A stretch of DNA of 43,302 nucleotides from Halothiobacillaceae bacterium (GTDB lineage: Bacteria > Pseudomonadota > Gammaproteobacteria > Halothiobacillales > Halothiobacillaceae), in NCBI GenBank assembly GCA_028696185.1, contig JAQVHL010000018.1, positions 1 through 43,302 on the forward strand, in the 5' to 3' direction. Under the pieces are notes generated by a model that saw only the letters and a list, made by a program, of their open reading frames with translations, had not been told where the DNA came from and made no database searches. This document shows positions 21,111 to 37,695 of this stretch, piece by piece (position 1 is the first letter of the stretch; every line of letters begins with the position of its first letter). The position numbers and the translations under genes are program-made.

Positions 21111-21142
21111 TTTCCACCTCGTTGATTTGCGGTTCGCCGGGC

Positions 21143-21294: not shown

Positions 21295-24200
21295 TTAGCC
21301 CCGCCCCGGCAGGGGGCGCCCGGCGGGTTTTGGCGCCTGTTCAGGCACTTTCTGCCCCGGTTTTGATGGGGTTGCATCCAGTCCAGCGGTCGGTGCCACC
21401 ACAACCGGCGCGGGGCTGGACGATCCACCATTGCCTGCGCCGATTTCCGGCAGACCACCGCCGCCACTGCCACCGCCCGACGTTTCCACGCGCGTTTCCG
21501 TCGAATGGGTGTGGGTCTCGGTAACGACCCCACCACCGCTGCCGCCGCCTGAAACCGTCTCTACGGTCTGCACGCCTGCCGCACTCGAACTGACGGATGA
21601 GGGTGAATCGCCCGGTGTTGCCGGTGCGCCTGGCATCCCCGATGACGACTGGGTAGCCGGGGCTTCACCCTGGGTCGGTGTCATGGCCGTGGGTTGTGCC
21701 CTGCCCGGAACAACGTGTCCTCCTTCCTCCCCTCCCGCGCCCGCCCCTACGTTCGTCGCCGGGATCGGGGTCGGTGTGGGCGCGGGAAGGGCTCCACCCG
21801 TTGCGGAACCGAACAGCACGTCCATGGCCTGCTGGGCGGCAAGCTGGGTAGGCTCGCTTGCCCCAAACCGCCCCAGGGTGGCGCTCACTCCGTCACGGAT
21901 GGGGTTGTCCGTGACGCCCAAGGGCTGCCCACTGGGGATCGCGCTGGGCTTGAGGTCGTGGAAGAGCTGTTCTTGCGCCTGGGTGAGCTGCCGACCCGCG
22001 CCGTCGGGGACGGCAGACGCATTTCGTTGTGCATCAATCAGATATTGCCCCGTCGCGGTCGCGTGCTGGCGCCCCTCGTCGGCGCGTTGCTGGTAGTAAC
22101 CCGCCTGCCCCTGTCCCGCGCCAATGAGCCCCTGCGCTGCCGCCTCCGTGCTGCGCCCTTCCAGGCCGCGCGCGCCGCCGATTTGCGCGTCTGCCTGCCC
22201 GCGCACCTGGGCGGAACTGCCTTCCAGACCCGCGCTGATCCGCGCGGCATCCTCCCTCATCCCCGTGCTGCTGCCCGCCCCGCCGGCGACCATCCCAAGC
22301 GCTGTGGCTGAGTTCATGAGCGCGGCTTGCGCGGCAAGCCGGGTGTCAAGGTCGCCTGAACGCATCAACGCGGCCATGGCCTGGTGGTGCGCCGCCGCCG
22401 CCACGTCCGCATTCGAGCCGCGCGAGGTGGCGCGGATGGCGTCGAAGTTCTTCATGTATTCCTGGTCATATCGCTGCATGGCCTCCAGGCCCCCTATGCC
22501 AATGAAATCGGCGACATTCGCCATGCGCATCGCCATGAGGCGCCCCTCCCCGGCGGTCACGTCGCGCCCGCCGGATTGCGAGAGCATGCCCGCAGCCAGA
22601 CGGCGCGCATGCTCTGCGCCGTTGATTTGGGCCGCGCTGTCCCCCTGCGTGCGGCTTTCAAGGGCGCGCGCCGCCTCCAGGCGGTCGCTGGCCTGCTGGC
22701 TCTGCTCGCTGGCCTGGCGAAGCTCGTTGAGAGTTGATTGAGATACGTTGCCCGTTCTGCTCCAGTTCGCGCCGATTTCTGCGCGGAAGCCGGCGCCGCT
22801 GTGCGTTTCGTCGTTCATGGCGGCGGTGCTGCCTTCCGTGCTGCGCGAGCCCTGCTCGCCTCGCACCCCCGCGCTGACGCGCCCTTCCTGGTCCCCGGAG
22901 AGTCCCAAGGTGGCCTGGGCAAAGGCGCTGACCAGCGAGCCACCCCGGCGGTTGGCTTCCGCTTCCGCTTCACCCATTGCCGCCGCTGCCCCGGCGCGGT
23001 CGCCCCGCTCCATCGCGGCCTTCGCGGCCTTAACGTTTTTATTGCCCGCCCCGAGCGTTTCCGCGCCTTTTTTGATAAAGCCCAGGGGGTCCACATCCAT
23101 CGCCACCCCGGCGTTCCCGCCGACACGCGCCCCGCGCGCGTAACTTCCGCCCGCGTCGGTGTGGGCACTCACTCCTTTGTTTTCTTCGTTACTCACATTC
23201 CTTCCATGCAGCGCCGTCGCGCGGGTGCCGCTGTCAGTGTAGTGGGCGCCGGTGGCCGAGGCTCCGCCCGCCGTGGTGACCCCGAAGGCCTCAGAGAGGG
23301 CGCGTGCTGCTGCGGTCGAGGCGCGCTGCGCGGATTCGACGGCTTGGGTCTCCGCAAGCCGGGTACTTGCCGAGATGCCGCCGCCGAGGCTCACATTTGA
23401 AAGCGCCCCGCCCATTTCTGCGCCCATGTCGGCGCGGCCTGCCGCCGCCCCGACGCCCGCGCCCCAGGTGGCGTTTGCGCTCACGCGCGCGGCGTTAATC
23501 TCGCTGGTGTTGATATCTGGAACCATGAGGTTGGGCGTTTTGCCCTCCTTGTCGGCGCGGTCTGCCGTGCCGTGCATCCCAGGGGAGGCATTGTGCGCGG
23601 CGCTCACACCCTGCGCCATTTTCGCCAAGCCGAAGGCGCTCCCCGCGAAGAGGGCAAAGGTGATAAAGGGCGCGTTGTTCAGCATCCGTGACGCAGCAAT
23701 CGTCGTTTCATGGATGTGGCGCAGCCACTCGACCATGTTCAAAGTAGAGCCGGCCCCGGTGTGAGCATGGAAGTTGCCAATCTGAAGTTGATACCAATGC
23801 ATGATGATCGCCAGCATCGGAATCCAGCTCTGCGACCAGATGCCGAATAGCAGATGCCCGCCGGCAGTTTTGAGCCCGGCCCAGGGGTTCGCGACGATGA
23901 CAAACAGGATGAGGGGGGTCGCGGAGATGAAGACAAAGAACAATACGTCCATCATTCTTGGCGCCACGCCAATCAGCGCTTGGGAGTCCCACGCCTCGTC
24001 CTCCGCCCAGCGGAATAGCTGGCGGGCTGTGTCAGCTTCGACCACCACGGTTCCCACCGGCGCCTGCGCCCCGCGCGCCATGCTGGCGATGGCAATGGCG
24101 CCGACGACATTCTTGTAACCGTCCAGGTAGGCGGCGCCGATGCCGCTTCCCACGCTCTGCGCCGCGCGCAGCAGCTCATCCGCCCCCGTCGCGCCGTATT

Positions 24201-25014
24201 GCGCCGGGGCGTTGTTGTAAAGTCTGTGGTTCGTCTTTTGAAGAATCGGCGCAATAAGGCTCTGCGCGTGCGTGTTCAGGAAGGCCTCGGCGTCCATGTT
24301 TTGCAAGCCTTCGATCCTTGATGCCGCCTCCTCGCAGGTTACCGCCTCGCCCGCGCCGCCGCCTGCGACATACGGACGGGTAGCGGAATACCACACCGTC
24401 TGGCCCGCCTGGGCGAGCTGCGCTAGGGTGGAAAACGGGGCGTTCGATTTCAATACCGTGGCCTTGTCCACCGCGCTGGAAAGGCAATACCGCTGAAACG
24501 CGAGGATTGATTCGCCTGTGTTGGTGTCCAGGCCGCCGTACTCCGCGCCGACCTGCCGCGCCGTTTCAAGCAAAACCTGGGCCGGGTAAAACGGCCCATG
24601 GCCGTCCTCAGGGCTCAGGATTGACCTATAGTTTTGGCTGGAGGAAGACATGACCGTTTCCATTTTCGTGGTCATGTAGATAGAGAAAGCGCTCGCGAGG
24701 TGGCCGGGAATGGCAATCGCGTAGGGCACATGATCCACCACCTGGGTGGGTGCGGCGTGGTCGAACTGCTCGATGGTCACCGTCGTTTTTGGCAGAAAAA
24801 CGGCCATCACGGCAAGAATCTGGATCAAAATTATATCCACCCGCAGCCCCTCCCGCGCCGCCACGGCGCGGGTCAGGATGAGCATGAGGGAAATCACCAA
24901 GCCGGTTTGGATGAGCGATGCCACCCAGGAATCCTGCCCGAAGAACAGGGCCATGCCCCGTAGGGCGCCCGCCAAAACGGCGGGATCGCCGATGGTGTAA
25001 AAGGTTGCATCCAC
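21295..25014 (-). CDS. traG: TraG-family F-type conjugation protein (mating-pair stabilisation / pilus assembly)
   Basis: 1239 aa from GTG 25014, chosen because AAGGAG lies 7 nt upstream and the TraG start pattern follows. The N-terminal about 480 residues carry the TraG_N pattern: membrane helices at about 30-75, the 'VDHVPYAIAIPGHLASA' stretch (compare VDNVPVGLAMP in F TraG), and further helices around 365-400 and 410-435. The remainder is long, Ala/Gly/Ser-rich and periplasmic in F TraG; here it is longer than F TraG (938 aa), and ends in a Gly/Ser/Pro-rich tail. In F-type systems TraG acts in pilus assembly and mating-pair stabilisation, and TraG is the target of entry exclusion. The only other T4SS genes in the window are traN and the mobility genes. 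Confidence 0.88.
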   Translation of the reverse strand: MDATFYTIGDPAVLAGALRGMALFFGQDSWVASLIQTGLVISLMLILTRAVAAREGLRVDIILIQILAVMAVFLPKTTVTIEQFDHAAPTQVVDHVPYAIAIPGHLASAFSIYMTTKMETVMSSSSQNYRSILSPEDGHGPFYPAQVLLETARQVGAEYGGLDTNTGESILAFQRYCLSSAVDKATVLKSNAPFSTLAQLAQAGQTVWYSATRPYVAGGGAGEAVTCEEAASRIEGLQNMDAEAFLNTHAQSLIAPILQKTNHRLYNNAPAQYGATGADELLRAAQSVGSGIGAAYLDGYKNVVGAIAIASMARGAQAPVGTVVVEADTARQLFRWAEDEAWDSQALIGVAPRMMDVLFFVFISATPLILFVIVANPWAGLKTAGGHLLFGIWSQSWIPMLAIIMHWYQLQIGNFHAHTGAGSTLNMVEWLRHIHETTIAASRMLNNAPFITFALFAGSAFGLAKMAQGVSAAHNASPGMHGTADRADKEGKTPNLMVPDINTSEINAARVSANATWGAGVGAAAGRADMGAEMGGALSNVSLGGGISASTRLAETQAVESAQRASTAAARALSEAFGVTTAGGASATGAHYTDSGTRATALHGRNVSNEENKGVSAHTDAGGSYARGARVGGNAGVAMDVDPLGFIKKGAETLGAGNKNVKAAKAAMERGDRAGAAAAMGEAEAEANRRGGSLVSAFAQATLGLSGDQEGRVSAGVRGEQGSRSTEGSTAAMNDETHSGAGFRAEIGANWSRTGNVSQSTLNELRQASEQSQQASDRLEAARALESRTQGDSAAQINGAEHARRLAAGMLSQSGGRDVTAGEGRLMAMRMANVADFIGIGGLEAMQRYDQEYMKNFDAIRATSRGSNADVAAAAHHQAMAALMRSGDLDTRLAAQAALMNSATALGMVAGGAGSSTGMREDAARISAGLEGSSAQVRGQADAQIGGARGLEGRSTEAAAQGLIGAGQGQAGYYQQRADEGRQHATATGQYLIDAQRNASAVPDGAGRQLTQAQEQLFHDLKPSAIPSGQPLGVTDNPIRDGVSATLGRFGASEPTQLAAQQAMDVLFGSATGGALPAPTPTPIPATNVGAGAGGEEGGHVVPGRAQPTAMTPTQGEAPATQSSSGMPGAPATPGDSPSSVSSSAAGVQTVETVSGGGSGGGVVTETHTHSTETRVETSGGGSGGGGLPEIGAGNGGSSSPAPVVVAPTAGLDATPSKPGQKVPEQAPKPAGRPLPGRG

Positions 25015-25047
25015 GTCTTGCGCTCCTTGGTTTTGGTTGTCACGTTT

Positions 25048-25066
25048 ACTTGTGAAGGCACGGAAC
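25048..25066 (-). promoter_or_regulatory. GTTCC-N9-CAAGT motif 3 (upstream of traG)
   Basis: Minus strand: GTTCC, GTGCCTTCA, CAAGT, AAA. It ends 33 nt before the traG GTG. Its CCTT can pair with AAGG of the traG ribosome site AAGGAG. Confidence 0.65.
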
Positions 25067-25120
25067 AGAATTCCAGCCCAAAAAAAGCCCCGGACTTCCG
25101 GGGCTTTTGCTTCGGTGCGG

Positions 25121-28100
25121 TCAATCCCCACACTTCTGGGTTGTTCTGAACCGGGCCACGAAGTCCCCCACGCCACCGACGATCAGGCGTACCTTCAGGC
25201 TGTTCGATCCGCTCTGGATCAAGGGCAGCAGGTCCACGCTCGTGGTGATGCCGCCGACCGTCATCCCGTGCGGACCCTGAATCTCGCGCGGCCAGTCGCA
25301 GCCGTCCGATGGATCGTCCGAAGTCTGGTTGCGCACCCGGTTGTCCGGGCACAGCTCCAGGGTGTCACCGCCGTTCGGGCCGTTCCAGATCACGGTGCCG
25401 TTCAGCTCCATGCGCAGCCAGTCGTCATAGGCCAGCCATTCCATGACGAACTGCGTCAGCTTGGACTTGTCCTTGATGTTGATGGTCCCGGAGAGATCGT
25501 AGGAGCCGTCAGGGTACTGGTGCTGCTGCTTGGTGCCGAAGGTCAAAAGCCAGTCCTGACCGTCCTCGATCCACTCAAAATTGGTTGTGGCATTGCCTGC
25601 CGAACCCAGCACGTTCCCGCAATCGGTCTGCTTACACTCGGGGTAGGTGTAAGGCATCTTCTTGTCGTCCTGGTAGCAATGGGTCGAATTGCGCAGGATT
25701 TCCGTATTCCCCATGAGCTTGTCCATATTCTGCTCCATGCCTTCGGCGGTCTTCGTGGCCGCAATGCGCTGGTCAAACTCGCCCTTGGTGTCTTCCGTGC
25801 GCCCCACGGCCTGGGTTATTTCGATCTTGTTCTGCGCCGCCCCGTAATTCGTGCGCGGGTCCGCGAGGTTCACAAAACCACTCTCCACCATGGCGTCCAG
25901 CCATTCGGACAGGTCCACGCGAGACCAATCGACCAGCGCCAAATCCATGGGCGTGAAGCCGCCACAGTTGATGTCACAGCCTGACAGGCTACCCCCACCG
26001 GGGGCCGTCCTGTAGTCGCGCGAGGGCAAAAGCCCTTTCTTGATGATCTGCTCGGCAATCACGCGCCCAGCAATGGACTTGTAACAGCAGTGCAAGCGCC
26101 GCTTCTCAACACAGAAGCCCAATGCCTTCTTGGAGCAACAATCACCGACATAGGTGCAGAGTCGCCACTTGTTGTTCATCGCCCATTCGTATTCCTCGGG
26201 CTTGCAGGCGAAGATGATGTGTCCGATGAGTTTGGCGAATTGGTACACAGTGAAGGCAAGGTTGATGTATTGCAGGATTTGGCCGCCAATCGTGTTGGCA
26301 AATCCCCATTCCCCTGCTTCCTGAGCGATGAATTCTTTTGCGAACTCATCCCCCCCGATTTCCTTGAGGAATTTGTAAGCCGTCTCGAACATGAGCTGCT
26401 CCATTTTGTGGATGACGCCTCCCTTTCCAAAAATCGCGATCCCTTTTTCGGCGGAATCCACTGCAATGCTTGAGGGTGCCGCGCCTGCCGCACCGCCACC
26501 GCCAAACGAACCAAACAGGCTGTCAAAACTGGCGTTAAAAGGCTCGACGAGGTTCTTCGTGACGTACTCAGAGGCCGCCCCATAGGCATCGGTAATCGGC
26601 TGGGCAATCTCGCCAAAAAACTTTGACGTGGAGTTGAAAACATCCACCCCGCCCACAAGTTTTTGGAATTGGGCATTGCTTCCGATTTGGTACATGAGCA
26701 TCGAGGCGTTCAGGTAGTCCATCCAGGTGGGCCGGTCTGAAGCGGCCACCGCATCCTCGGTTTCCTTGCAGCAGTTCGGGGTGATACCGATTTCATGCCC
26801 AATCGGAATCTTGCAGTACATGGCCTTGCCGCCAAACACCATTGGCGTGCAGGGGTCGGTGGTGTTCTTCGGCGGCTCCCCGGTCTCCGCACAGATCATG
26901 TCCATCTTGGCCATGTTCAGCGCTTCCATGCCGGCCACGGCCTGCGCAAAGGCGTCTCCGTTCGCGCCCGCGAGGTTCGGGCGGTGGCACTCCGTCCCCA
27001 GGCAGCGCATGGCACCCGAGCACGAATCCCCCTTCTCCTCGATGATGACCGGAATTTCGCTGCCCTTTTTTTCCCCACAGTCATAGGCCAGCGTTGGGTT
27101 GTAGCAGACCCCGGTATACAGCCCCAGAAAGCGCGAGTCGCAACCGTCATAGGCGGTGCTTCGCTTGCACATGCCGGAACTCTCCAGCGGCACGCCATCC
27201 GGCCCCGGCGTGATGTGGCAATCCGTCGCCCACAGCTCTCCGTTGCGGGTGAACTGTTTCAGGCTACTGGCGCTCATCGTTTCGCAGGTCGTGAACGGCT
27301 CGCCTACAGCCTCCCAGCACATTTGATCGTCGAGCAGGATCACCTCCGGCCCGGTCGGGGTCGGCTCCACGCCGGCTCCACCGCCCGAATAATCGGGGAA
27401 GACGGCGGAAGAATCCGTTCCCCATTTTTTCAGGATGTCCACGATCCCCGAGTTCGGCAGACCCGGCCCGAAGGTCACACCGCCAATGGTTCGTGTAGGC
27501 GCGGTATCCACGCAGGTCAGCTTGCCGCCCTGGCAAAATCCATCCGCCACATGCTGCATGTATTTCTCGCACCCGGCGAAGGTGTTGATCGTCACCGCAT
27601 AGAGTTTCGCCATCAGGCGCAACTCGTGCAGGGTATCGTCTCCACTCGCGCTCCCGGTCGGCACCCAGCTTTCATCGGGCAAGCCATAATGCGAGAAATT
27701 TCCGCTCCCGCCAGCCTGGACAAACACGCCATCCGCCGCGAACTCAAAAGGATCGCCGCCCATGGGGGTATGGTCGTATTCGATGTAATACCCGGCGCTG
27801 GTCCCCAGCGGATCGTCAGGCAGAATCTCGGTCGTGCAATCGTTCTTGCCGTCACCGTCGAGGTCACGCGGGCAATCCGGGGCGCCGATAATGCGGAAAT
27901 TCGTCAACACGCCACCTTTGACATTCGCGGGCTCTTTCACATAAGTGAAAAGCGGATTACCGTTGGCATCCTTTACCTGCTGCCCGGTCTGCGGGTCGAT
28001 GATCGGCACGGCCTTCTTGTTGAAGGCGCGCACGGTCAAAAAGTTATGCTCGCCCAGATAGCTCATGCCATAGGAACGCTTGATGGTGTTGCAACCGTCC

Positions 28101-29626
28101 GGGTAGGGGTTCACCAGCGTTTCCGAGCAGAGCTGAATATTCTCCTGGTGGTAGGAGTTATCCACGCCGACCTCAATACGGGTGATGGTGTCTCGTGAAC
28201 ACAGGCCGGCCAATTCCTGCGCCGTGCTGCTCGACCCGGCGTTCAGGCCACGCATGACCCCGCCGACGACACCGGCATCATCGCGGTAGTTCTTGCCTCC
28301 CGCGTTCGCCATGCTTAGGTCGCTGTATTCCTTACCCTTCACCTGGGCATCCGGATTGCTCCGGTCGTCGTACATGGTCAACACGCTGGCCCCAGGAGAG
28401 CCCGCGCACCAGCGCAGCGTGTCGCCGCCAACGGACGACACTTCGCAGCTCTGCGGGGGATCGGGCGGGCAGCCGGCTCCGGCAGCCGGCTCCGTGTAGC
28501 TCACGTCCGTCCGATACAGGTCCGCCGAGAGATATACCGCCGTCACGCCCTGGGGCACGGTGTAGCCAATCGAAGGCGTAAACCCGTCATCCGGCGTGCC
28601 GTAGCTGGCAAAATAATTCTCAGGCAACGGCTCCACGCTCCCGCCGTGAGAAATGCCCAACTGGTGCCGGTAGGTGAAGAAATTGCGGTCGCGTGGCGCG
28701 GTATACGGCGTATAGGTGTAGCGAATCGCATAGTCATCGCCGATACGATCCCAATAGGTAGAGGATGAACCGCCAATCGTCGGGACAGCCAGCTTCAGCG
28801 TGCCTTTCTTGTAGGTGCTGGGCGTCATGACGGTGGTGTACTCGACCGGATTCGTGTTAGGGATCGGCTCCTTCACCAGGTCAAAGAACTCGACCTTCAG
28901 GATGCGGTTTTCCGCCGAACCCGGTGCCTGGGCAATATCCTGCCGGTCCAGCAGGATGAAATCCGTCTTGCGGCACCCGCTGCGCTTGAGTTTCTGCTTG
29001 TTCTTTTCGGCCATCTCCTTGGCCTTGCTGGGGTCCTGGTAGATCGCCCCGCCCATGTCGCGCAAGGTCTGCACGTCCTGCGCGTTATATCCCGGCATGA
29101 TCTCGGTGACGTTGACCCGCCCCTCTGCGGTGTCGTTCTGCCCAGGGTCCACCCGGTTGGTTTCAACCTGGTAATTCCTGACATCTGCCGTGTTGTAAAT
29201 TCCCTGTGCGAAATCCGATCCGCGCTGCGCGCCCTGCACCAGATCGCCAATCTGCAGGGGCGCATGCTTGCTGGCCGCGCTTGCCGCCAGTGCGGCGTCG
29301 GACGGATCGGGTATCAGGTTCGGCGTCCTGACCGGCGAGGTGTCCGGGGTCAGGTTCGGTGCGTGCAGCGATTCTTCCATCTTCCAGCCTTCGGCCAGCT
29401 TGCGGGCACGCTGGTTGGTCAGATGGTCTTCCGTGGCCTTGTCCACGGTGCGCCCGGCCACGGCACTCTCGCGCTGTTCCGTGGTGGTTTGCTCGCCGGG
29501 CAAGCCCTGGGCGTAGGCTTGATGCCATTGCAGCGGCCAGACGATCAGGGACCAGGCCAGTAGGACATGAGCCCCGGCCCGAAGGATAAGGGAGTAAGAG
29601 TAATTCGATTCGGCTGGTTCGGACAT
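25121..29626 (-). CDS. traN: TraN-family outer-membrane adhesin (mating-pair stabilisation)
   Basis: 1501 aa, start ATG 29626. A signal-like hydrophobic segment (about 13-40) ends at AYAQG. The cysteine-rich conserved TraN core is near residues 1000-1270: CCKETED, then CSKKALGFCVEKRRLHCC, then the segment leading to DWSRVDLSEW, which align with CSKKVLGVCLEKKRSYC and the following part of F TraN. F TraN is 602 aa; this one has a large N-terminal extension and a C-terminal extension of about 200 aa with Trp/Gly-rich beta-sandwich-like sequence (YDDWLRMELNGTVIWNGP). TraN recognises recipient outer-membrane receptors and stabilises mating pairs, so the extensions probably set recipient range. Confidence 0.88.
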   Translation of the reverse strand: MSEPAESNYSYSLILRAGAHVLLAWSLIVWPLQWHQAYAQGLPGEQTTTEQRESAVAGRTVDKATEDHLTNQRARKLAEGWKMEESLHAPNLTPDTSPVRTPNLIPDPSDAALAASAASKHAPLQIGDLVQGAQRGSDFAQGIYNTADVRNYQVETNRVDPGQNDTAEGRVNVTEIMPGYNAQDVQTLRDMGGAIYQDPSKAKEMAEKNKQKLKRSGCRKTDFILLDRQDIAQAPGSAENRILKVEFFDLVKEPIPNTNPVEYTTVMTPSTYKKGTLKLAVPTIGGSSSTYWDRIGDDYAIRYTYTPYTAPRDRNFFTYRHQLGISHGGSVEPLPENYFASYGTPDDGFTPSIGYTVPQGVTAVYLSADLYRTDVSYTEPAAGAGCPPDPPQSCEVSSVGGDTLRWCAGSPGASVLTMYDDRSNPDAQVKGKEYSDLSMANAGGKNYRDDAGVVGGVMRGLNAGSSSTAQELAGLCSRDTITRIEVGVDNSYHQENIQLCSETLVNPYPDGCNTIKRSYGMSYLGEHNFLTVRAFNKKAVPIIDPQTGQQVKDANGNPLFTYVKEPANVKGGVLTNFRIIGAPDCPRDLDGDGKNDCTTEILPDDPLGTSAGYYIEYDHTPMGGDPFEFAADGVFVQAGGSGNFSHYGLPDESWVPTGSASGDDTLHELRLMAKLYAVTINTFAGCEKYMQHVADGFCQGGKLTCVDTAPTRTIGGVTFGPGLPNSGIVDILKKWGTDSSAVFPDYSGGGAGVEPTPTGPEVILLDDQMCWEAVGEPFTTCETMSASSLKQFTRNGELWATDCHITPGPDGVPLESSGMCKRSTAYDGCDSRFLGLYTGVCYNPTLAYDCGEKKGSEIPVIIEEKGDSCSGAMRCLGTECHRPNLAGANGDAFAQAVAGMEALNMAKMDMICAETGEPPKNTTDPCTPMVFGGKAMYCKIPIGHEIGITPNCCKETEDAVAASDRPTWMDYLNASMLMYQIGSNAQFQKLVGGVDVFNSTSKFFGEIAQPITDAYGAASEYVTKNLVEPFNASFDSLFGSFGGGGAAGAAPSSIAVDSAEKGIAIFGKGGVIHKMEQLMFETAYKFLKEIGGDEFAKEFIAQEAGEWGFANTIGGQILQYINLAFTVYQFAKLIGHIIFACKPEEYEWAMNNKWRLCTYVGDCCSKKALGFCVEKRRLHCCYKSIAGRVIAEQIIKKGLLPSRDYRTAPGGGSLSGCDINCGGFTPMDLALVDWSRVDLSEWLDAMVESGFVNLADPRTNYGAAQNKIEITQAVGRTEDTKGEFDQRIAATKTAEGMEQNMDKLMGNTEILRNSTHCYQDDKKMPYTYPECKQTDCGNVLGSAGNATTNFEWIEDGQDWLLTFGTKQQHQYPDGSYDLSGTINIKDKSKLTQFVMEWLAYDDWLRMELNGTVIWNGPNGGDTLELCPDNRVRNQTSDDPSDGCDWPREIQGPHGMTVGGITTSVDLLPLIQSGSNSLKVRLIVGGVGDFVARFRTTQKCGD

Positions 29627-29630
29627 GATT

Positions 29631-29669
29631 CGCCCCCGCGTGGTTTTATCCCTTACTTGCGCGGGGGCG
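29631..29669 (-). promoter_or_regulatory. Hairpin sequestering the traN ribosome-binding region
   Basis: CGCCCCCGCG (29660-29669, minus strand) is perfectly complementary over 10 bp to CGCGGGGGCG (29631-29640), which ends 4 nt before the traN ATG and includes the only SD-like stretch. The loop is 19 nt and contains CAAGTAAGG. RNA folding would block translation. Confidence 0.6.
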
Positions 29670-29673
29670 GAAC
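29655..29673 (-). promoter_or_regulatory. GTTCC-N9-CAAGT motif 4 (upstream of traN)
   Basis: Minus strand: GTTCC, GCCCCCGCG, CAAGT, AAG. It ends 28 nt before the traN ATG and lies in the 61-nt gap after the relaxase gene. Confidence 0.7.
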
Positions 29674-29687
29674 TGGATTAACCTGGA

Positions 29688-32450
29688 TTAACGCTCAAAG
29701 TCCCTGTCGGGGCTGCGGTCGGGGCTGCGCGTCTCATGGCGCGTGTTCCGCGCCTCCGCGCCGGCCTGGTGAATCAGGCGGCGCACCTCGTCGATGTGCT
29801 CACGGGTTGAGCCTAGCGCGGCTTCTTTCTGGCCGGTTTCGGATTGAATTTGCGCCTGCAACTTGTCTTTACCGTCTGTGAACACCGTCGCGCTGTGCGT
29901 GGCGCGGGAAATGGGGACGTAAAAATTTTGCTGGGACATCAAGTTCTTACGGTGAGACTCGGCGTGTATTAGTACATGTTTGGTCGTGCGCCCCTGCGAT
30001 TCGTGCCCAGTTTGCGCGTACCCATGATCCACCGCGAGGGGGCGGGTGGGGTCGAGGAGATGGGCTTTCCCCGCGCCGTCGCGGGTGTGGATCGCACCTT
30101 CATGTACTTTTTCAATGGTAAGTGTTGTGCCGTTCTTCAAGTTGTAGATGTTGGCGCGGGTGACGATTTTATCCCCCTCCGCCACGCCCATTTCGCGGGT
30201 CTGGTAGACGTTTAGGCGTGAAAATCGCGCGGGGTTAATCTCGCGCATCTCTCCCCCCTTTCCCTTTTCGAGCTGGATGGTGAGGCGATTGGACGTGGCA
30301 TCCACCCCCACCACGCGGGCAAAATCGCCCCGCGCGAGGCCCGTGCTTTTATAATCGCGGCCCGCCTGGATCACGTCCCCTGGGTGGTATCTTGCCGCGT
30401 GCTTCTGCTCCTCGCGGGTCAGGTCGCGCCGCTCCAGGGCGCGGATTTTGGTTTCCTCGCCCAGCTCGCCCCGCTCGCGCAGGGCGGCGCGCACCGCCTC
30501 GTTGATTTCGCGTCGGTCGTCGCGCCCTGGCGCGATAATCATCGTCTGGGATCGCTCCTCTTGGGAGCGCTGGGTGTAATTTTTAACAATCTCCTCCACC
30601 CGCTCCTCGCGGGTTTTGAGTTCATGCACCTCGATTTTGTCCAGGGCCTTGCCAACCTCGCCCCGGATTGAGTGATAAACGGCCTTTTTTAACTGATCGT
30701 TTTTCTGGCGGACAATTTCATCCAAAACCAGGGTTTTCAGCCCGCTTTGTTCCTGGAGCTGCCGAAACGCCGCCCCCGCCTCCACGCTGCCGATTTGCGC
30801 CGTATCTCCCACTAGGATCACCCGCGCCTCGCGGGTGCGTTCTAGCAGCGCACGCATGTCGCGAGTGCTTAGCATGGAGGCTTCGTCCACGATCACGACC
30901 TCCCGCCCCGCCCCCTCCTGGGGGCGCGAATTGAGGAAGCTCGCGACGGTTTGCCCCTCGGCCTGGATGGCCTCGGCGAGCGTCGCCGCCGCGCTGTGTG
31001 TGGGTGCCAAGGCGCGAATTTGATACCCCTGGCGGCGCAGCTCCTCGGCGCTCGTGGCCAAGACGCTGGTTGTCTTTGCCGTGCCGGCGTAACCTTGGAT
31101 CAGGCTTACCCTTTCTCCACTCGTGAGGATGGATTGGGTAGCATCACGCTGGGCCGGATTGAAGGCAAACCCAGTCCGCGCCTCCTGGCGCGCAATTGCC
31201 TTTTCCGCCCCGGCGCGGCTTGTAGTAGGAGATTGCTCACGCCCCTGGCGCGAAGCGGCGAGCATTCCGTGTTCCGTTTCTTGCCCTCTTCTTGTCGTGA
31301 ATCCATCCATTTGTGTTTTACCCAAAACGGGATCAAACTGCCGCGTTTTTGTGGCAATAAGCGCGCCTTGCTCCTTGGCGCGTGCAATTGCTTCACGAAC
31401 CTGTGATTCATTGACCTCGCCCATGCCGAAGCGAAGAGCATCCACCACGATCTGTCGCTCTGCAAATCGGGTCTCCCTTTCGGACAGGTGATTGATCGCG
31501 GATTGAAGCGCACGATCCGCGCGGGACTCCGCGCTTTCAATCTGGATACTGGCAGTCGGCAAGGAAAAGGTGAATCCCGCCTCCGCACTCCGGGCCTGCC
31601 ACGCCTCGCGTAATTCGGCATGGTCTGCGACCTCTTTCCCTTGCCGGGTTTTCAGCTTCACCATTTCTTTCTGTTCAGCACTCGCGGTTTCAGGGGTAAG
31701 ACCCAATTTCGCAAGCTCGGCTTCGATTTGCTTCGCGCGTGTGCTGTGGATTTCCCTTTCTTCTTTACTGATTTGTGAGAGTTCAAAACTTGCATATCCA
31801 CCTTCTGTCGTCTTTTCAATTTGATAACCCATGCGCTCGGCCTGCGCGGCCAATTCGGCGCGATAAACCAAACCGGCTTCAGTTTGCAGTCTGTAAATAG
31901 CTCGTGATTCTATTGATCGCCATTTTCCATCCTCGCTTTGCGTCGCATTGATGACAATGGCGTGGGAGTGCAATTGCGCTTCCTGCTCTCGACTGGTCGC
32001 GTGTCGATACACTGCAGCGGTCAGATTGCCGGTTTTCTCTGTTTCAACCGCCCCCCCTGTCCTGATTCGTGTCGCGGCGGCTTCGGATTCAAGGTAATTG
32101 AGCGCTGCGACAACCGCCTTGTTGTGCGCCTCAATCAGACGGTCATCGCCATGGACCAATGCGGCCACCGAAACGGATTTAGGCGCACTAAAGGTCACGT
32201 CCCAACCGGGTTTATGCTCGCGCTCTCCATTGGGGCCAGCCCGACCCAATTCTACGCCATTTGGCAAACGGCCATTAAGCAATGCTTCGGTCTGGTCTTT
32301 ATCCACGGCCCCGGAAAGCCCTAAAAGCGCAGCCCCTTTTCCATGCCAATGCGTCGGGGCAGAAACCCCTTCTCGGTAATAATCATCCACCTGGGCGTAA
32401 TACTCACTTGCCCCGGCGGCAGAATTGATTGCGGTAACGTGGGCAACCAT
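29688..32450 (-). CDS. traI: MOBF relaxase / helicase (TrwC-TraI family)
   Basis: 920 aa, close in size to R388 TrwC (966). The relaxase domain (about 1-300) has two Tyr pairs, 17-18 and 24-25, matching Tyr18 and Tyr26 of TrwC, and the metal-binding His triad with HSH at 161-163. The helicase part has Walker A GYAGTAKTT (453-461), Walker B VDEASM (521-526) and a RecD-like C-terminal region. It should nick oriT, stay bound to the 5' end and unwind the transferred strand. The ATG follows directly after the accessory protein's stop. It lacks the long C-terminal part of F TraI. Confidence 0.95.
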   Translation of the reverse strand: MVAHVTAINSAAGASEYYAQVDDYYREGVSAPTHWHGKGAALLGLSGAVDKDQTEALLNGRLPNGVELGRAGPNGEREHKPGWDVTFSAPKSVSVAALVHGDDRLIEAHNKAVVAALNYLESEAAATRIRTGGAVETEKTGNLTAAVYRHATSREQEAQLHSHAIVINATQSEDGKWRSIESRAIYRLQTEAGLVYRAELAAQAERMGYQIEKTTEGGYASFELSQISKEEREIHSTRAKQIEAELAKLGLTPETASAEQKEMVKLKTRQGKEVADHAELREAWQARSAEAGFTFSLPTASIQIESAESRADRALQSAINHLSERETRFAERQIVVDALRFGMGEVNESQVREAIARAKEQGALIATKTRQFDPVLGKTQMDGFTTRRGQETEHGMLAASRQGREQSPTTSRAGAEKAIARQEARTGFAFNPAQRDATQSILTSGERVSLIQGYAGTAKTTSVLATSAEELRRQGYQIRALAPTHSAAATLAEAIQAEGQTVASFLNSRPQEGAGREVVIVDEASMLSTRDMRALLERTREARVILVGDTAQIGSVEAGAAFRQLQEQSGLKTLVLDEIVRQKNDQLKKAVYHSIRGEVGKALDKIEVHELKTREERVEEIVKNYTQRSQEERSQTMIIAPGRDDRREINEAVRAALRERGELGEETKIRALERRDLTREEQKHAARYHPGDVIQAGRDYKSTGLARGDFARVVGVDATSNRLTIQLEKGKGGEMREINPARFSRLNVYQTREMGVAEGDKIVTRANIYNLKNGTTLTIEKVHEGAIHTRDGAGKAHLLDPTRPLAVDHGYAQTGHESQGRTTKHVLIHAESHRKNLMSQQNFYVPISRATHSATVFTDGKDKLQAQIQSETGQKEAALGSTREHIDEVRRLIHQAGAEARNTRHETRSPDRSPDRDFER

Positions 32451-33014
32451 TTAATTGGACTCCTTGACCAACCGGATGACATCCTCTGGATTTTGAGGCC
32501 ATTCTTCAGGCGGAAAACTGGGCGGCAAATCGCGCATTTCAGGAAAGTCGGGGGCGTTAATCAGGGGCCAGCGCCCGAAGGCGCAATAGTAGGAATAGGC
32601 AACCACCATTACGCGATTCAACGCCATCTTTGGAGAGAGCGTGGACCTGGCTGGAAATGACAGGATCGCGCGGGAGTAATACTCATCGAACGCAGGGGCC
32701 GGCTTGATGGACTTCACCACGGCTTTGGTCAAATCAATCATGGCCTCTGTCACGCCATTCAGCGTTTTTCGTGTCTCTTTGAGGCTGCCAATCGCATCAC
32801 CGCGCAGCAATTCAAGTGCATCGGTGAATCGCTCAATATCAGCGCGGGTCGGAACGGGTTGAGCCTGGGGCGCGGGCTGGGCTGGTTTGCCTGCGTGTTC
32901 CTGAATGAGACGTCGTAGGTATTCATTCCTGGGAAGATTGGCAGACCTTGCTTCTGTATCAACGGCCTGTAGAAGCTGATAGGGCATATGAAGGTTAACT
33001 CGGGATTCGTTCAT
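32451..33014 (-). CDS. Ribbon-helix-helix relaxosome accessory protein
   Basis: 187 aa. The N-terminal 40 residues (RVNLHMPYQLLQAVDTEA then RNEYLRRLI) have the ribbon-helix-helix pattern of TrwA/MobC/TraY-type proteins; a proline/glutamine linker and a helical C-terminal domain with Trp-rich parts follow. It sits between the candidate oriT and the relaxase gene, as trwA does relative to trwC, so it probably binds oriT repeats and may repress its own promoter. The leader GAGACGCGCC precedes the ATG. Confidence 0.75.
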   Translation of the reverse strand: MNESRVNLHMPYQLLQAVDTEARSANLPRNEYLRRLIQEHAGKPAQPAPQAQPVPTRADIERFTDALELLRGDAIGSLKETRKTLNGVTEAMIDLTKAVVKSIKPAPAFDEYYSRAILSFPARSTLSPKMALNRVMVVAYSYYCAFGRWPLINAPDFPEMRDLPPSFPPEEWPQNPEDVIRLVKESN

Positions 33015-33038
33015 GGCGCGTCTCGATGGGAATTACCT

Positions 33039-33057
33039 ACTTGTGCAGAGGCGGAAC
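33039..33057 (-). promoter_or_regulatory. GTTCC-N9-CAAGT motif 5 (upstream of the accessory protein gene)
   Basis: Minus strand: GTTCC, GCCTCTGCA, CAAGT, AGG. It ends 24 nt before ATG 33014. CGCCTC can pair, with one mismatch, with GAGACG of the leader just upstream of the start. Confidence 0.65.
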
Positions 33058-33098
33058 GGGCGTAACTGCACGGCAACGGCTCGATGCGACATACGACA

Positions 33099-33132
33099 TG
33101 CGTAATACGCAATACACATTGCGTATTACGCA
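33099..33132. repeat. Perfect 14-bp inverted repeat in the candidate oriT
   Basis: TGCGTAATACGCAA and its exact reverse complement, separated by TACACA. Each arm itself contains a shorter palindrome (GCGTAATACGC is nearly symmetric). Confidence 0.85.
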
Positions 33133-33237
33133 ATGCAGCATGCAGGAAGGTGGGCGGTTTTTAGCTAGCGTCTCCAAGGGGATGGAGTAGAGGAATGACC
33201 ACCACAAGGATTGTTCAACACACCAGTCTAGGTATCC

Positions 33238-33351
33238 GGATTCAGTTGTGCATGCGTTTACCAAGGAAAAGCCTTGGGTTTTGGGATTCAGTTGTGCATG
33301 CCGTTGTGCATGCCGTTGTGCATGCGTTTACCAAGGAAAAGCCTTGGGTTT
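33238..33351. repeat. Direct repeats with embedded hairpin and 12-mer iterons
   Basis: GGATTCAGTTGTGCATGC... to ...CCTTGGGTTT occurs at 33238-33281 and again at 33284-33351; the second copy carries two extra 12-bp units of GTTGTGCATGCC. CCAAGG and CCTTGG form the hairpin in each copy. Confidence 0.8.
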
Positions 33352-33523
33352 CAGCCACCACGCGCGCCAGCGCGACGCGGCAGGCAGTGCGTGGGGTCTG
33401 TCTCCAAATTCGGGCGCCCGCGAGCGTCAGCGAGGGGGCATGCGCGGGCCGGGGTCCGCCTGCCCTCGGGGGCAAGTGGGGCGGGCTTCAGCCTGCTCCA
33501 CTTACCCCCAGAGGGGGGGGGAA

Positions 33524-33613
33524 GATGCGACATGCAACATGCAGCATGTGCAATCTGATGTTGCAATGCGACTCACGACATGCGATATGCAGCATGCGAC
33601 ATACAACATACAC
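33524..33613. repeat. Array of degenerate ACATGC-type short repeats
   Basis: CATGC/CATAC words preceded by A or G recur about every 10 bp (one helical turn) for 90 nt, next to the 3' end of the coupling protein gene. Suits cooperative protein binding. Confidence 0.6.
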
Positions 33614-33633
33614 ACTTCGATAATGAGAAGTGT

Positions 33634-35610
33634 TTACCACTCTTCATCGTCAGTCTGGGCCGGGGTGTTTTGTTCATGTTCAACTCGATCTACCTGGGGC
33701 AAGGAGGCCGGGTTGAAGCGCATTTCTTCGCGCTCAAGGAAAAGCGGGTTTTTATGCGGGCGCTTTTTGTATTCGATCTGCACCCTTGCAACCTGGCCTT
33801 GGGTTTTATCAAACACCACTTTCAAAAAGCCTTCGAGCGGCTTTAATCTCGCGATTTCAGCAGGCATGACCAAATATCGCTCCGCCCGGCGGCTGGACAC
33901 CCCGCTTGAATCGCGAACGGACTCCACCCCGAAACTGACCGATTCTGATTTCTCAATCACTTCTTCCTTTCCAAGGATTTCGGCAAGTTTTTTAGCCGTC
34001 TCGTCTTCATCTGTTTTCAGAATTAGCTTGTTTTGCAACCCACCAATGAAAATGCTCATCGCCTCTTTTGAGTACACTTGGGTAAGCTGCTGGATGTTTT
34101 GAATCCCAACCATTGTTGAGATTCCATATTTGCGCGATTGGGTAAGTGCAACATCAAGACTCTGGATTTTCCCCGCGCTTGCCAATTCGTCCAGGGCAAA
34201 GAAAAGATGAAGATCATCACGCGGAACGTCCATCGCCTCATTGAGGGCGATTGACAAAAATACGCTGATGTACGGCTTGATGATTTCATGGATGGACGCA
34301 CTTGAGGAAATGAACAGCCATGAATCCCCCTCTTGGCGTACAAAGTCACGAATTGAAAAACCACCCTCGGCGAAATGCTGAAGGAAACGCAAACCGGGCG
34401 ATGAAACAATCTGCCCGCGAATAGACTGCGATGTTTTGGCGGTTTCTGGATTGATGAGTTGCGCGCCATTTCCATTAACCGATTTCAGGATTTCATGCAA
34501 TTCATGCAGGGGTGTCTTTGCGGCAACGGAATAAATATCCGGCACGGATTTTGAGTTTGCGGCGCAATACTTGATAACATCGGTCAGAACTGTGCGCGCT
34601 GAATTGGACCAAAACGGGTCGCCGCCTTTTGGATCGGGAATAAATTGCTGCGCAAGGAATTCAATATCGGCTTCACGTCGCAAATCGGCAAACAGATTCC
34701 ACCCCTCGCTGCGTTTATCGGCGGGATTGAGAATCACGTCGATACCAGGCCGGTAATAAATGGCGGTGAACTCCCCGGTCGGGTCATAAACGATGGCACG
34801 TTTTTTGGCATTGCGAAGGGAATCGAGCGTGTGCATGATGGCCTGCGATTTTCCCGACCCGGACCCGCCCACGGCGAGCAGGTTTTTAAACAGGGCGTTT
34901 TTGGGCAACTCGACCCCGCCAAATGCAATCCCGCTGGGCGCCTCGCGTTTGATGAGCTTTTTCATTGCCTGAACGCTTATTATTTCAGCCCCGCGCAGCT
35001 TTTCGGATTCACCCGCCTTTTTCCCGGCCTGGCGGAAAATGAAAAGGATAAGGACAAATACCGCCCCACCCAAGGCGGAAATGAAATACAGCCGCATTTT
35101 TACAGGCGCCCACGCCTGCGCCAGCGCGCCCGATTTTTGCAAGGCGTGCAGCATATCTGGGTGGGGAAGACAAAGGCGGGATTCGGGGCCGAGTTTTGAA
35201 TCTACCTCCTCGCCGCCTGGGGTTTTAAGCATTGGGGTTTTAAGCATCTCTGCCAATTCTGGATCGATTTCTTCCAGGGTGTCCCTTTTTCTTTTTTCAA
35301 TTGGCAATGCCTTAAGGTTGATCCCGAAACGCGCAAAATCTTGAAGGGAAAGACATAAAGTTACATCTCTCTCCCAAGGAAAATTTTTTGGTTCAGACTC
35401 AGACCGATTTCCAATTTCAAAAAAATTTAGAGTTAAAGCTGCGCTGGTGGTTTTCAGAATTTTTAATTCATCATGAATTGAATCAGAAGTAAAAACAGGC
35501 CAAGCGGACAGCGCTGCCGCGCCCAGGGCCAGCAGCCCGGCACGGGTTAAACTTGTTGAAAATAAACGGGATTTATGGGTGAGAATTTCGCTTCCGCGCG
35601 TGGTGGACAT
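33634..35610 (-). CDS. traD: Type IV coupling protein (VirD4/TrwB/TraD family)
   Basis: 658 aa, start ATG 35610. Two membrane helices (about 22-40 and 173-193) flank an unusually large periplasmic part of about 130 residues; the cytoplasmic ATPase has Walker A GGSGSGKS (248-255) and Walker B FFALDEL with Asp-Glu at 474-475, followed by the TrwB-type QSRKYG segment. It should bring the relaxase-DNA complex to a T4SS and provide ATPase activity. In the periplasmic part a 15-bp tandem duplication encodes KTPMLKTP. Separated from traI by the candidate oriT. Confidence 0.93.
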   Translation of the reverse strand: MSTTRGSEILTHKSRLFSTSLTRAGLLALGAAALSAWPVFTSDSIHDELKILKTTSAALTLNFFEIGNRSESEPKNFPWERDVTLCLSLQDFARFGINLKALPIEKRKRDTLEEIDPELAEMLKTPMLKTPGGEEVDSKLGPESRLCLPHPDMLHALQKSGALAQAWAPVKMRLYFISALGGAVFVLILFIFRQAGKKAGESEKLRGAEIISVQAMKKLIKREAPSGIAFGGVELPKNALFKNLLAVGGSGSGKSQAIMHTLDSLRNAKKRAIVYDPTGEFTAIYYRPGIDVILNPADKRSEGWNLFADLRREADIEFLAQQFIPDPKGGDPFWSNSARTVLTDVIKYCAANSKSVPDIYSVAAKTPLHELHEILKSVNGNGAQLINPETAKTSQSIRGQIVSSPGLRFLQHFAEGGFSIRDFVRQEGDSWLFISSSASIHEIIKPYISVFLSIALNEAMDVPRDDLHLFFALDELASAGKIQSLDVALTQSRKYGISTMVGIQNIQQLTQVYSKEAMSIFIGGLQNKLILKTDEDETAKKLAEILGKEEVIEKSESVSFGVESVRDSSGVSSRRAERYLVMPAEIARLKPLEGFLKVVFDKTQGQVARVQIEYKKRPHKNPLFLEREEMRFNPASLPQVDRVEHEQNTPAQTDDEEW

Positions 35611-35641
35611 GGAGCTTGGCGCCTTTTTTTTTGATACATCG

Positions 35642-35660
35642 ACTTGCGCCGGGGCGGAAC
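35642..35660 (-). promoter_or_regulatory. GTTCC-N9-CAAGT motif 6 (upstream of traD)
   Basis: Minus strand: GTTCC, GCCCCGGCG, CAAGT, CGA. It ends 31 nt before the traD ATG. GGCGC of the motif can pair with GCGCC in the traD leader, which overlaps its AAGG site. Confidence 0.65.
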
Positions 35661-35682
35661 CGCGCTGCGCGGGCGCGGGGCG

Positions 35683-35708
35683 AAAAAAAACCCGCCGGGC
35701 GGGGCGGG
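35683..35708 (-). terminator. Rho-independent terminator after the replication operon
   Basis: Minus strand: CCCGCC (35703-35708), 6-nt loop, GGCGGG (35691-35696), then eight T (35683-35690). A second, 11-bp hairpin without a T run, CTACCCGCCAC/GTGGCGGGTAG (35741-35766), lies between it and the gene end. Confidence 0.75.
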
Positions 35709-35709
35709 C

Positions 35710-35755
35710 TTTGAGGGGTCTTGAGGCGCTTCAGGCACCCCTACCCGCCACAGGG
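35710..35755 (+). repeat. Dispersed repeat, copy 2
   Basis: Matches 15827-15870 over about 44 nt in the same orientation. Here it leads into the 11-bp hairpin at 35741-35766. Confidence 0.7.
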
Positions 35756-35780
35756 GTGGCGGGTAGGGCAGGAAAACGGC

Positions 35781-36167
35781 TCATGCGCGCTTGGACAGCG
35801 CTTCACGCATGATCATGAGGTGGTGCGCCGCCACCTTGCGGCGCCTTTCCCTTTCCTCCTCGCCGCGCGGCAGGGCGCGCGGCGCAGGCGCATAAGCCAT
35901 TGATTTATGGTCAAAATCCGGCCTGGCGAGACGGAGAAAAACGGCGGGGGTGAGGGGCTGCCCTGGCTCAACCCGCGCGATTTTGCTCAACCCGCGCATC
36001 ACTTCGTCAGCAGTAAGTCGTTCATTTTCAATGAAATCTCCCCACGCTTTTAACCAGTTTTTTGCATCCAGTTCGCTCCTAGTCTGCGCCGCCACGGCGG
36101 GGAAATATGGCCTGAACCTTGCTAGAAGCAGCGCGGCGAGCTGGGCCGGGGTGGCGTGATTACTCAT
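35781..36167 (-). CDS. Replication protein P-like helicase loader
   Basis: 128 aa from ATG 36167 (MSNHATPAQLAAL), overlapping the O-like gene's stop. The pattern RFRPYFPAVAAQTRSELDA then WGDFIENERLTADEV then PLTPAVFLRLARPD follows the phage lambda P-like family (FPA, then ENGIT..EQV, then PSPGQFV). Such proteins load the host DnaB helicase at the origin marked by the O-like protein. Shorter than lambda P (233 aa). Confidence 0.65.
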   Translation of the reverse strand: MSNHATPAQLAALLLARFRPYFPAVAAQTRSELDAKNWLKAWGDFIENERLTADEVMRGLSKIARVEPGQPLTPAVFLRLARPDFDHKSMAYAPAPRALPRGEEERERRRKVAAHHLMIMREALSKRA

Positions 36168-36903
36168 TTTCCACCCCCAGGCGATTGACATAGCTTCCGA
36201 CGTGTGATAATACCGCGCGCATCCAGGGCGGCACCTCCTCCGCCTCGCTTAGCAAAATCCGCGCCACGGTGCTTGGGAAGGCGCGTCCGCGCGGGTCTTT
36301 TTCCTCCGCACGCTTGACAGCGGCGGCGATTTGTGATGGGTGGAACTCATAAATTTTGGAAAGGATCGAGGCGTCCAGCTCGTTCTCTTCCTGATAATGA
36401 ATCCCATTTCCATCGACGCGCAGAGAGGGTGCGCCTCGCGCGCCTGCGGGAGCGCGCGCAGGCGCGCGCGACTCTCTTTTGGGTTCTTTCTTATCTTTTA
36501 GATTCCAGCTTTTAGCTTCGGGGGCATAAATTTCTGCCCGGGGGGAAAATTCTGCCACCTCCCCCTCGACCTCATTTTTCCCCCCAGGGGGAAAATTCTG
36601 CCCCCTCCCCTCGACACCTTTCGATAAAGAAAGGTTGAGGTAATATAAATTACTTAAATTCCTGCCCTGGGCGTCATGGCGATGCTCAATTTTTATCAAT
36701 CCCAAATTTTTTAAATCTTGGATCGCCGCCCGCACCCCGCGCTCGGAGGCTTGCAAGTCCTGTGCCGTGCGCTCATGGCCCGGCCAGCACACCCCGCGCG
36801 GGTCCGCGCGGTCCGCAAGGCGCAGCAAAACCAGTGAATTCAAGCACTTAAGCTGCGTGGAAGATATTATCCTCCAGGCCCATGCCGTGGCTTCCGCGCT
36901 CAT
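36160..36903 (-). CDS. Replication initiator, phage O-like with winged helix
   Basis: 247 aa. The N-terminal winged-helix domain (about 10-95: KCLNSLVLLRLADRAD followed by WPGHERTAQDL then SERGVRAAIQDLKNLGLI) is of the HTH_36 / phage replication O type. A Gly/Pro-rich linker (about 100-135) repeats an 'FxPxG/A-E' pattern whose DNA is the iteron array. A C-terminal conserved part follows (about 175-235, WMRAV). Its start overlaps the upstream gene by four nt (ATGA), and its stop overlaps the P-like gene's ATG. The lambda-type O-P arrangement suggests that the excised element replicates. Confidence 0.75.
   Translation of the reverse strand: MSAEATAWAWRIISSTQLKCLNSLVLLRLADRADPRGVCWPGHERTAQDLQASERGVRAAIQDLKNLGLIKIEHRHDAQGRNLSNLYYLNLSLSKGVEGRGQNFPPGGKNEVEGEVAEFSPRAEIYAPEAKSWNLKDKKEPKRESRAPARAPAGARGAPSLRVDGNGIHYQEENELDASILSKIYEFHPSQIAAAVKRAEEKDPRGRAFPSTVARILLSEAEEVPPWMRAVLSHVGSYVNRLGVENE
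36520..36616. other. Candidate replication origin inside the O-like gene
   Basis: GGGG(C/G)-(A/T)-AAATT-type units recur: GGGGCATAAATTTCTGCCC (36520-36538), GGGGGAAAATTCTGCC (36541-36556) and again GGGGGAAAATTCTGCC (36587-36602), with an inverted TTTTTCCCCCC at about 36575-36585. The two best copies share CTCCCCNTCGAC downstream. AT-rich flanks lie on both sides (36474-36520 and 36619-36665). This matches the lambda layout, where origin iterons lie within the O gene's linker-coding part. Confidence 0.5.
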
Positions 36904-37322
36904 GCCACACCCCCTTGCAGGAACAAATCACCTTGTGTTTCAATCAGTTGCAGCGCCCTTGAGATGCGTTTCCTCGCCCCGCGTGCGCAGCATTCTTCCC
37001 TCGCGGCGCGGACCTGGGCCGCCGCCCAGGCGGCGGTAGCGTCGTCCACCTCACGCCACTTTTCCACCTCCTGGCGTGAATTAACTGATTGATTTAAAAG
37101 GTATTGTTGCCAGTCAAAGCCCGTGCCGGCCAGCTTGGCGCGCGCCCGGCAGGCCGCGCGCAGGGCCGGTTCGGTGAGCTTCCCCTCCTCTTTCAAAACC
37201 CACGCCTCGCTTATAACCTCCTCTTTTTCCAATGATTTTTCGCGCTGGAGCTGGGTCAGAACGATGTTCCACCCCTCGCCACCAAAGAGAGAATGATAAT
37301 TATTCAGGCTTGAATTATTCAT
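36900..37322 (-). CDS. Hypothetical 140-aa protein of the replication operon
   Basis: Charged, mostly helical protein with Asn-rich start (MNNSSLNNYHSLFGG) and Ala/Arg-rich C-terminal part. GGAGG precedes the ATG; its stop overlaps the O-like gene. I do not recognise it. Position suggests a replication or regulatory role. Confidence 0.7.
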   Translation of the reverse strand: MNNSSLNNYHSLFGGEGWNIVLTQLQREKSLEKEEVISEAWVLKEEGKLTEPALRAACRARAKLAGTGFDWQQYLLNQSVNSRQEVEKWREVDDATAAWAAAQVRAAREECCARGARKRISRALQLIETQGDLFLQGGVA

Positions 37323-37325
37323 TTC

Positions 37326-37691
37326 TCAAGCCTCCTGCGCCGGGGTGGAAGGCAGGGGGGTGGAAGGCAGGGGGTTCTTGCGTGGACGCCCACGCCCGCG
37401 CTTGATCGGGGCCGGGGCGGAAGGGGGGGTGGAAGGTGAGGAAGTGGCAGCTGGGGTGGAAGGCTCCAGGGTGGACATCAAGGTTTTTTTAATTTCCTCT
37501 ATTTCCAAACCCATCACCCACAAGTCGAGGGCATAAGTGTTTGAAACAACTACATTCCCTACCCTTCGGCATGGGATTTGCTTTGAGGCGACGTAACGCT
37601 GTGTCGTGGTGAAGGAAAGGCCGAGGTGGCGCGAAATCGCGTCCAGGCCAGAAATGTTTTTCCCAAAATTCCCAAAATTTTCGATTGACAT
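37326..37691 (-). CDS. Small DNA-binding protein: HTH plus AT-hook
   Basis: 121 aa from ATG 37691 (MSIENFGNFG). The N-terminal domain GLDAISRHLGLSFTTTQRYV then KQIPCRRVG resembles a MerR-like/excisionase helix-turn-helix (HTH_17). The C-terminal tail is Pro/Ser/Thr-rich with KRGRGRPRKNP, an AT-hook core (GRPRK). Candidate excisionase/recombination directionality factor or operon repressor. It is the first gene of the replication operon and has an inverted repeat just upstream. A TTG at 37724 is a less likely start. Confidence 0.65.
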   Translation of the reverse strand: MSIENFGNFGKNISGLDAISRHLGLSFTTTQRYVASKQIPCRRVGNVVVSNTYALDLWVMGLEIEEIKKTLMSTLEPSTPAATSSPSTPPSAPAPIKRGRGRPRKNPLPSTPLPSTPAQEA

Positions 37692-37695
37692 TTTT

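Follow-up and report, generated by a model that had tools for sequence, protein, structure and literature searches.

A 20-nucleotide box repeated before the transfer genes of an SGI1-like mobilizable element, with a predicted hairpin at traN

Results

The sequence analysed (the window) is a 43,302-nucleotide stretch of a contig of a Halothiobacillaceae bacterium. It carries a 25.1-kb element bounded by 47-bp direct repeats (98%) at 13307-13353 and 38413-38459, the right copy of which lies inside a tRNA-Arg(CCT) gene (38413-38489). The main genes of the element are listed in Table 1. Its TraN, besides its similarity to the pAt1 protein, is 50-53% identical to TraN of Comamonadaceae plasmids with complete F-type systems, and its TraG is ~42% identical to pAt1 TraG in the N-terminal part and divergent in the remainder. 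We identified no pore genes other than traN and traG in the element. A search of the genome for TraH and TraU returned no TraH and only a fragment of TraU; this match (contig C2), a 133-codon open-frame fragment beside unrelated genes, was rejected as a sign of a resident helper. With an integrase, attachment repeats and TraN and TraG in place of a full type IV secretion system (T4SS), the element is an SGI1-like integrative mobilizable element.

Several other regions of the element can be described briefly. Positions 14506-17357 hold four consecutive toxin-antitoxin-like pairs, namely Gp49/HTH_37 (HigBA-like), HicAB, a PemK/MazF-type toxin with a small gene upstream, and BrnTA. The noncoding stretch between the accessory gene and traD (33015-33633) contains direct repeats (GCATGTTGCATGTCGCATC-like, and ATTCAGTTGTGCATGCGTTTACCAAGGAAAAGCCTTGGGTTT twice) and is the probable oriT. 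Three small genes follow traG at 20325-21110 (55 aa, 50 aa and a 142-aa predicted lipoprotein); by position they are candidates for entry exclusion. A gene of 109 aa (18581-18910) is flanked by a 29-bp near-identical repeat, GGCCGGGAACCGCCCGGCGCGGGTTGRGG, at 18552-18580 and 18946-18974.

Five exact copies of the motif GTTCC-N9-CAAGTA are present in the window, where 0.04 would be expected for this gapped pattern, and a sixth copy has CAAGTC as its right flank; all are on the minus strand. A first-pass annotation of this DNA had described four such sites, with constant flanks around a variable N9, and had overlooked those at 21163-21182 (8-bp pairing, part of a terminator) and 19012-19031 (no pairing). 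The constancy of the flanks holds exactly at five sites and breaks at the sixth. The N9, however, is not the variable part: together with the flanks it forms a single 20-nt box whose consensus is GTTCCGCCCCYGYRCAAGTA; five or more of the six sites agree at 17 of its 20 columns. At most sites the N9 fits GCCCCYGYR (the six are TCCCCTGTG, GCCCCCGTG, GTGCCTTCA, GCCCCCGCG, GCCTCTGCA and GCCCCGGCG). The sample is six boxes, all from one element.

All six boxes fall inside the 25.1-kb element, and all are noncoding throughout, against only 9% of 20-mers in the region (P ~6e-7). They precede traD, the accessory gene with the relaxase gene, traN, traG, the small genes after traG and the short gene after the ArdC-like gene; at traD, the accessory gene, traN and traG the distance from box to start codon is 23-32 nt. 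No box was found at the integrase, replication-initiator-like or toxin-antitoxin genes of the element. Elsewhere in the 2.9-Mb genome there is one exact match to the loose pattern (contig C66), which misfits the conserved N9 and was taken as chance.

Table 1. Coordinates of the element, its main genes, the boxes and the associated hairpin and terminator sequences
Feature	Position	Strand	Remarks
Integrated element, 25.1 kb	13307..38459	.	between 47-bp direct repeats
Tyrosine integrase	13435..14469	+	left end of element
Box 1	19012..19031	-	directly after ArdC-like stop codon; 101 nt before orf 18581-18910; no pairing
Box-2 terminator, 3' arm CGGGGGCG and U7 run	21143..21157	-	predicted fold
Box-2 terminator, 5' arm CGCCCCCG	within 21163..21182	-	predicted fold
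Box 2	21163..21182	-	between traG and small downstream genes; overlaps intrinsic terminator
TraG	21295..25014	-	likely start GTG at 25014, AAGGAG Shine-Dalgarno sequence
Box 3	25047..25066	-	32 nt before likely traG start; 4-bp pairing, chance level
Intrinsic terminator AAAGCCCCGGAAGUCCGGGGCUUUUUUU	25076..25109	-	follows traN; ends ~12 nt upstream of box 3
TraN	25121..29626	-	58% identity to pAt1 TraN (Allochromatium tepidum plasmid)
3' arm of traN hairpin CGCGGGGGCG	29631..29640	-	covers traN Shine-Dalgarno-like sequence; ends 4 nt before ATG at 29626
Box 4 (traN) GTTCCGCCCCCGCGCAAGTA	29654..29673	-	5' hairpin arm = 29660-29669
MobF/TrwC relaxase-helicase	29688..32450	-	
Ribbon-helix-helix-like accessory protein	32451..33014	-	RHH_1 below curated cut-off
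Box 5	33038..33057	-	23 nt before RHH-like accessory gene/relaxase operon; pairing not above chance
TraD/TrwB-type coupling protein	33634..35610	-	
Box 6 (CAAGTC)	35641..35660	-	30 nt upstream of the traD start; 5 bp of pairing, not above chance
Intrinsic terminator	35683..35712	-	ends ~22 nt upstream of box 6

On the minus strand the traN leader reads GTTC-CGCCCCCGCG-CAAGTA, with CGCCCCCGCG at 29669-29660, and continues through CGCGGGGGCG and AATC to the ATG. The two ten-nucleotide segments form the perfect 10-bp inverted repeat that the first-pass annotation had reported. Structure prediction agreed with it, giving a hairpin over the ribosome-binding site of -26.8 kcal/mol (z -2.6; 2 of 200 shuffles as good), and the predicted fold of the leader without the 5' arm reached only -8.4 kcal/mol. 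No terminator lies between the relaxase stop codon (29688) and traN, and the hairpin occupies that place. The traN pairing is probably real, beyond chance, and a hairpin masking the ribosome-binding site of traN would form if the motif is transcribed.

The earlier proposal went further and took each N9 to match the Shine-Dalgarno region of its own gene, so that the motif would be a covarying RNA switch. We compared the longest perfect helix between N9 and leader at all six sites. It measured 10 bp at traN, 8 bp at the gene after traG (orf21110), 5 bp at traD, 4 bp at traG, 4 bp at orf18910 and 3 bp at the accessory gene; in the same order, P was 0.003, 0.018, 0.08, 0.86, 0.99 and 0.95 against dinucleotide-shuffled leaders, and 0.002, 0.01, 0.31, 0.62, 0.69 and 0.95 against random windows of the element, the traN values being those of one site among six tested. 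The sum of helix lengths over the six sites was above that of shuffles (P ~0.006), carried by traN and orf21110. The pairings reported at traG (CCTT with AAGG) and traD (GGCGC with GCGCC) thus exceeded neither shuffles nor random element windows, and the six pairs with one mismatch reported at the accessory gene shrank to 3 bp within the N9, again not above chance. Predicted hairpins over the ribosome-binding sites of traG, the accessory gene and traD were no better than those of shuffled sequences (z +0.4 to +0.8).

Nor does the N9 change with the Shine-Dalgarno sequence as had been suggested. When the N9s were permuted among the leaders, 36 of 720 arrangements of the six sites, and 5 of 24 for the four sites originally described, paired as well as the real one; without traN and orf21110 the figure was 19 of 24, meaning that swapping makes no difference. 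Most of the reported covariation is explained by the C-rich box, which often finds short complements in G-rich Shine-Dalgarno regions with no selection needed. What stands of the switch is the stable predicted hairpin at traN; as a general covarying mechanism it falls, with four of six sites at chance level, and the switch should no longer be cited as a covarying element.

The second strong pairing (21150-21178) is an intrinsic terminator, built from an arm of box 2 and a run of seven T (21143-21149), with a predicted energy of -25.6 kcal/mol (z -2.2). Further terminators lie directly before boxes 3 and 6 (Table 1). If these work, the traG and traD mRNAs start in, after or only just before the box, and any leader that holds the N9 could only be short, which argues against a leader-RNA switch as the general explanation.

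We also looked for the box and its genes elsewhere. Exact peptide patterns detected no relatives of the relaxase in an 84,980-species collection or in IMG/VR, and at E <= 1e-130 the relaxase matched itself only among 369 genomes of the class. A profile search with TraN added five genomes, whose loci are of plasmid type and have no box; across 400 genomes from the Acidovorax family TraN gave three matches, at least two of which are loci already in the comparison. TraG and TraD had no match in IMG/VR. Clusters of the box pattern were absent outside the element itself in 369 genomes of the class, 210 of the Allochromatium order and 27 of its own order, and the 22 matches in IMG/VR were single, never more than one per contig, and were judged to be chance. 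Neither the sampled genomes nor the TraN-related plasmids nor IMG/VR yielded a homologous leader with the box, so no compensatory changes were seen. The absence of a second box-bearing element is weak evidence, because the searches used exact short patterns or genome samples.

Plasmids with the same T4SS family, from Delftia and Alicycliphilus, have repeated dyads of their own near the starts of tra units. In the Delftia acidovorans plasmid a near-dyad that includes AGCTTTTCG stands by tra-unit starts at 8.6, 22.2, 37.7, 42.0, 46.0 and 46.7 kb, with a TAGTAT-like sequence ~30 nt on at several copies, and looks like the tra regulon box of that plasmid. In Alicycliphilus pALIDE01 (at 21744 and 28714, and likewise in one further locus) a GGCGAAAC-N7-GTTTCGTC dyad is followed by CTAGTAT and then a terminator; one of the two pALIDE01 dyads immediately follows the stop codon of a small gene, the other that of traN.

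Discussion

The above results lead us to favour, with some reserve, a reading in which the motif is a DNA promoter/operator box that marks the tra units of the element, one factor reading all six copies and switching the tra genes together. The factor would probably come from a conjugative helper, as its transfer activator, or it may be a regulator encoded by the element. The box would overlap the core promoter, and transcription would start a few nucleotides after it, giving leaders of ~17-26 nt that still hold the Shine-Dalgarno sequence. This is consistent with boxes that are noncoding, on the same strand, confined to the starts of tra-region units and absent from the remaining element, and with the conservation of the N9, since a 20-bp binding site is expected to be conserved throughout. 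The terminators that end ~12 nt upstream of the traG box and ~22 nt upstream of the traD box would likewise leave room for starts only in or after the box. The SGI1-like make-up of the element points the same way, as tra genes in SGI1 share a helper-activator box, and so do the repeated dyads that plasmids of the same T4SS family have at their tra units. Against a DNA box stands the gap of 23-32 nt to the start codon, which is too short for a class II activator box and a normal leader; a fit would require a box that overlaps the core promoter, or nearly leaderless mRNAs. The six boxes gave no match to a sigma-70 promoter and adjoin no conserved -10 element. Moreover, none of the TraN-related plasmids checked has the box, and no helper carrying it was found.

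Other identities for the box were discarded. The sigma-54, ECF, MerR-spacer and sigma-32 promoter types lacked matching elements or spacing; iterons or parS do not fit a box that is not dyadic and stands only upstream of genes; and for a conserved antisense target the genome contains no second, complementary copy of the box.

The closest parallel to a box of this kind is in SGI1, which carries traN, traH and traG to remodel the pore of its helper, with these genes controlled by the helper activator AcaCD (PMC5389848). As with the AcaCD boxes of SGI1 and IncC plasmids, an integrated mobilizable island has one box repeated before its transfer genes, among them traN and a traG-type gene, and encodes TraN and TraG without the rest of the pore. 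The sequence, however, differs from the AcaCD core, GCCCAAAATGGGC (PMC5058578). SGI1 has its -10 boxes 22-24 bp downstream of the AcaCD site, and transcription of traN and traH begins 22-26 nt ahead of those genes (PMC5058578); the box described here, at 23-32 nt from the start codon, is too near for the SGI1 class II geometry. The element also differs from SGI1 in bringing its own MobF relaxase and coupling protein and in its attachment site, tRNA-Arg in place of trmE. AcaCD is an activator of the FlhDC type, and no FlhC homologue was found in the genome. The Delftia and Alicycliphilus dyads resemble the box in recurring close to the starts of tra units, in some cases immediately behind a stop codon and adjoining a terminator; unlike it, they are dyad-symmetric, have other sequences and are followed by a TAGTAT-like element, and GTTCC-N9-CAAGTA is absent there.

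At traN and at the gene after traG, a downstream inverted copy of the N9 would be an addition to the promoter/operator box. In an mRNA reading through from the relaxase gene both arms would be present and the ribosome site of traN hidden (OFF), and an mRNA beginning at the box would be without the 5' arm (ON); at orf21110 read-through would meet the terminator and also be OFF. The hairpin and the box-2 terminator may then be two ways to insulate a tra unit from its upstream neighbour. If active, the traN hairpin would most simply serve to silence traN in relaxase read-through mRNA. Hairpins that mask ribosome-binding sites and silence read-through transcripts are known from the transposase leaders of IS10 and IS200 and from T4 gene e. 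There too the 5' arm lies upstream of or at the gene's own promoter and the 3' arm over the ribosome site, so that only long transcripts are silenced; here, in contrast, the hairpin is found at traN only, and its 5' arm is within a conserved box that is also present at genes without a hairpin.

Whether the hairpin has any regulatory role is a separate matter. There is a considerable chance, though short of even, that the traN pairing is a by-product of a GC-rich box facing a G-rich Shine-Dalgarno sequence. The sequence CGGGGGCG or its complement is present 10 times in the window, and a P of ~0.002-0.003 at one of six tested sites is modest when four others are negative; yet a perfect 10-bp pair over a ribosome-binding site with this z-score, a second strong pair at orf21110 and the six-site sum all speak for more than coincidence. 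A fortuitous hairpin is compatible with a promoter/operator box, and its probability is not exclusive of that explanation.

The box could alternatively be the operator of a repressor encoded by the element, such as the ribbon-helix-helix-like accessory protein, which would cover the core promoters of the tra genes until a helper arrives. TrwA and other repressors act similarly in R388-type plasmids, box 5 stands directly before the accessory gene itself, and the box overlaps the expected position of the core promoter. We nevertheless regard this as unlikely: the box is asymmetric, whereas proteins of this type mostly bind repeats or dyads, the RHH match falls short of the curated cut-off, and no plasmid relative of the accessory protein was found, hence no site with which to compare.

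Still less probable, in our estimate, is a switch in the leader RNA, in which the box is transcribed and a protein or RNA acting in trans binds GTTCC and CAAGTA in the mRNA, melting or preventing an OFF hairpin (over the ribosome-binding site at traN, the terminator at orf21110). The traN hairpin is real as a 10-bp pairing, the same N9 serves as the 5' arm of the terminator at orf21110, both strong pairings would be OFF structures, and the distance from box to start suits a leader element. Pairing at four of six boxes is, however, not above chance, a longer leader is unlikely at traG and traD, whose boxes follow directly on terminators, homologous leaders with compensatory changes were not found, and the boxes have no match in Rfam. 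The more specific idea that a helper supplies the RNA-binding factor, which would undo both the traN hairpin and the post-traG terminator through one recognition sequence, seems improbable to us; if true, a mobilizable island would sense its helper at the level of RNA, as opposed to the promoter activation of SGI1.

Should the promoter/operator reading be right, the element would be a hitchhiker in the style of SGI1 from a different lineage, having a regulon box of its own and encoding a TraN and a TraG that serve F-type pores of another family. It would provide a second system for asking how mobilizable islands time the expression of their transfer genes to a helper, and the sequence of the box is a handle for finding that helper and its regulator.
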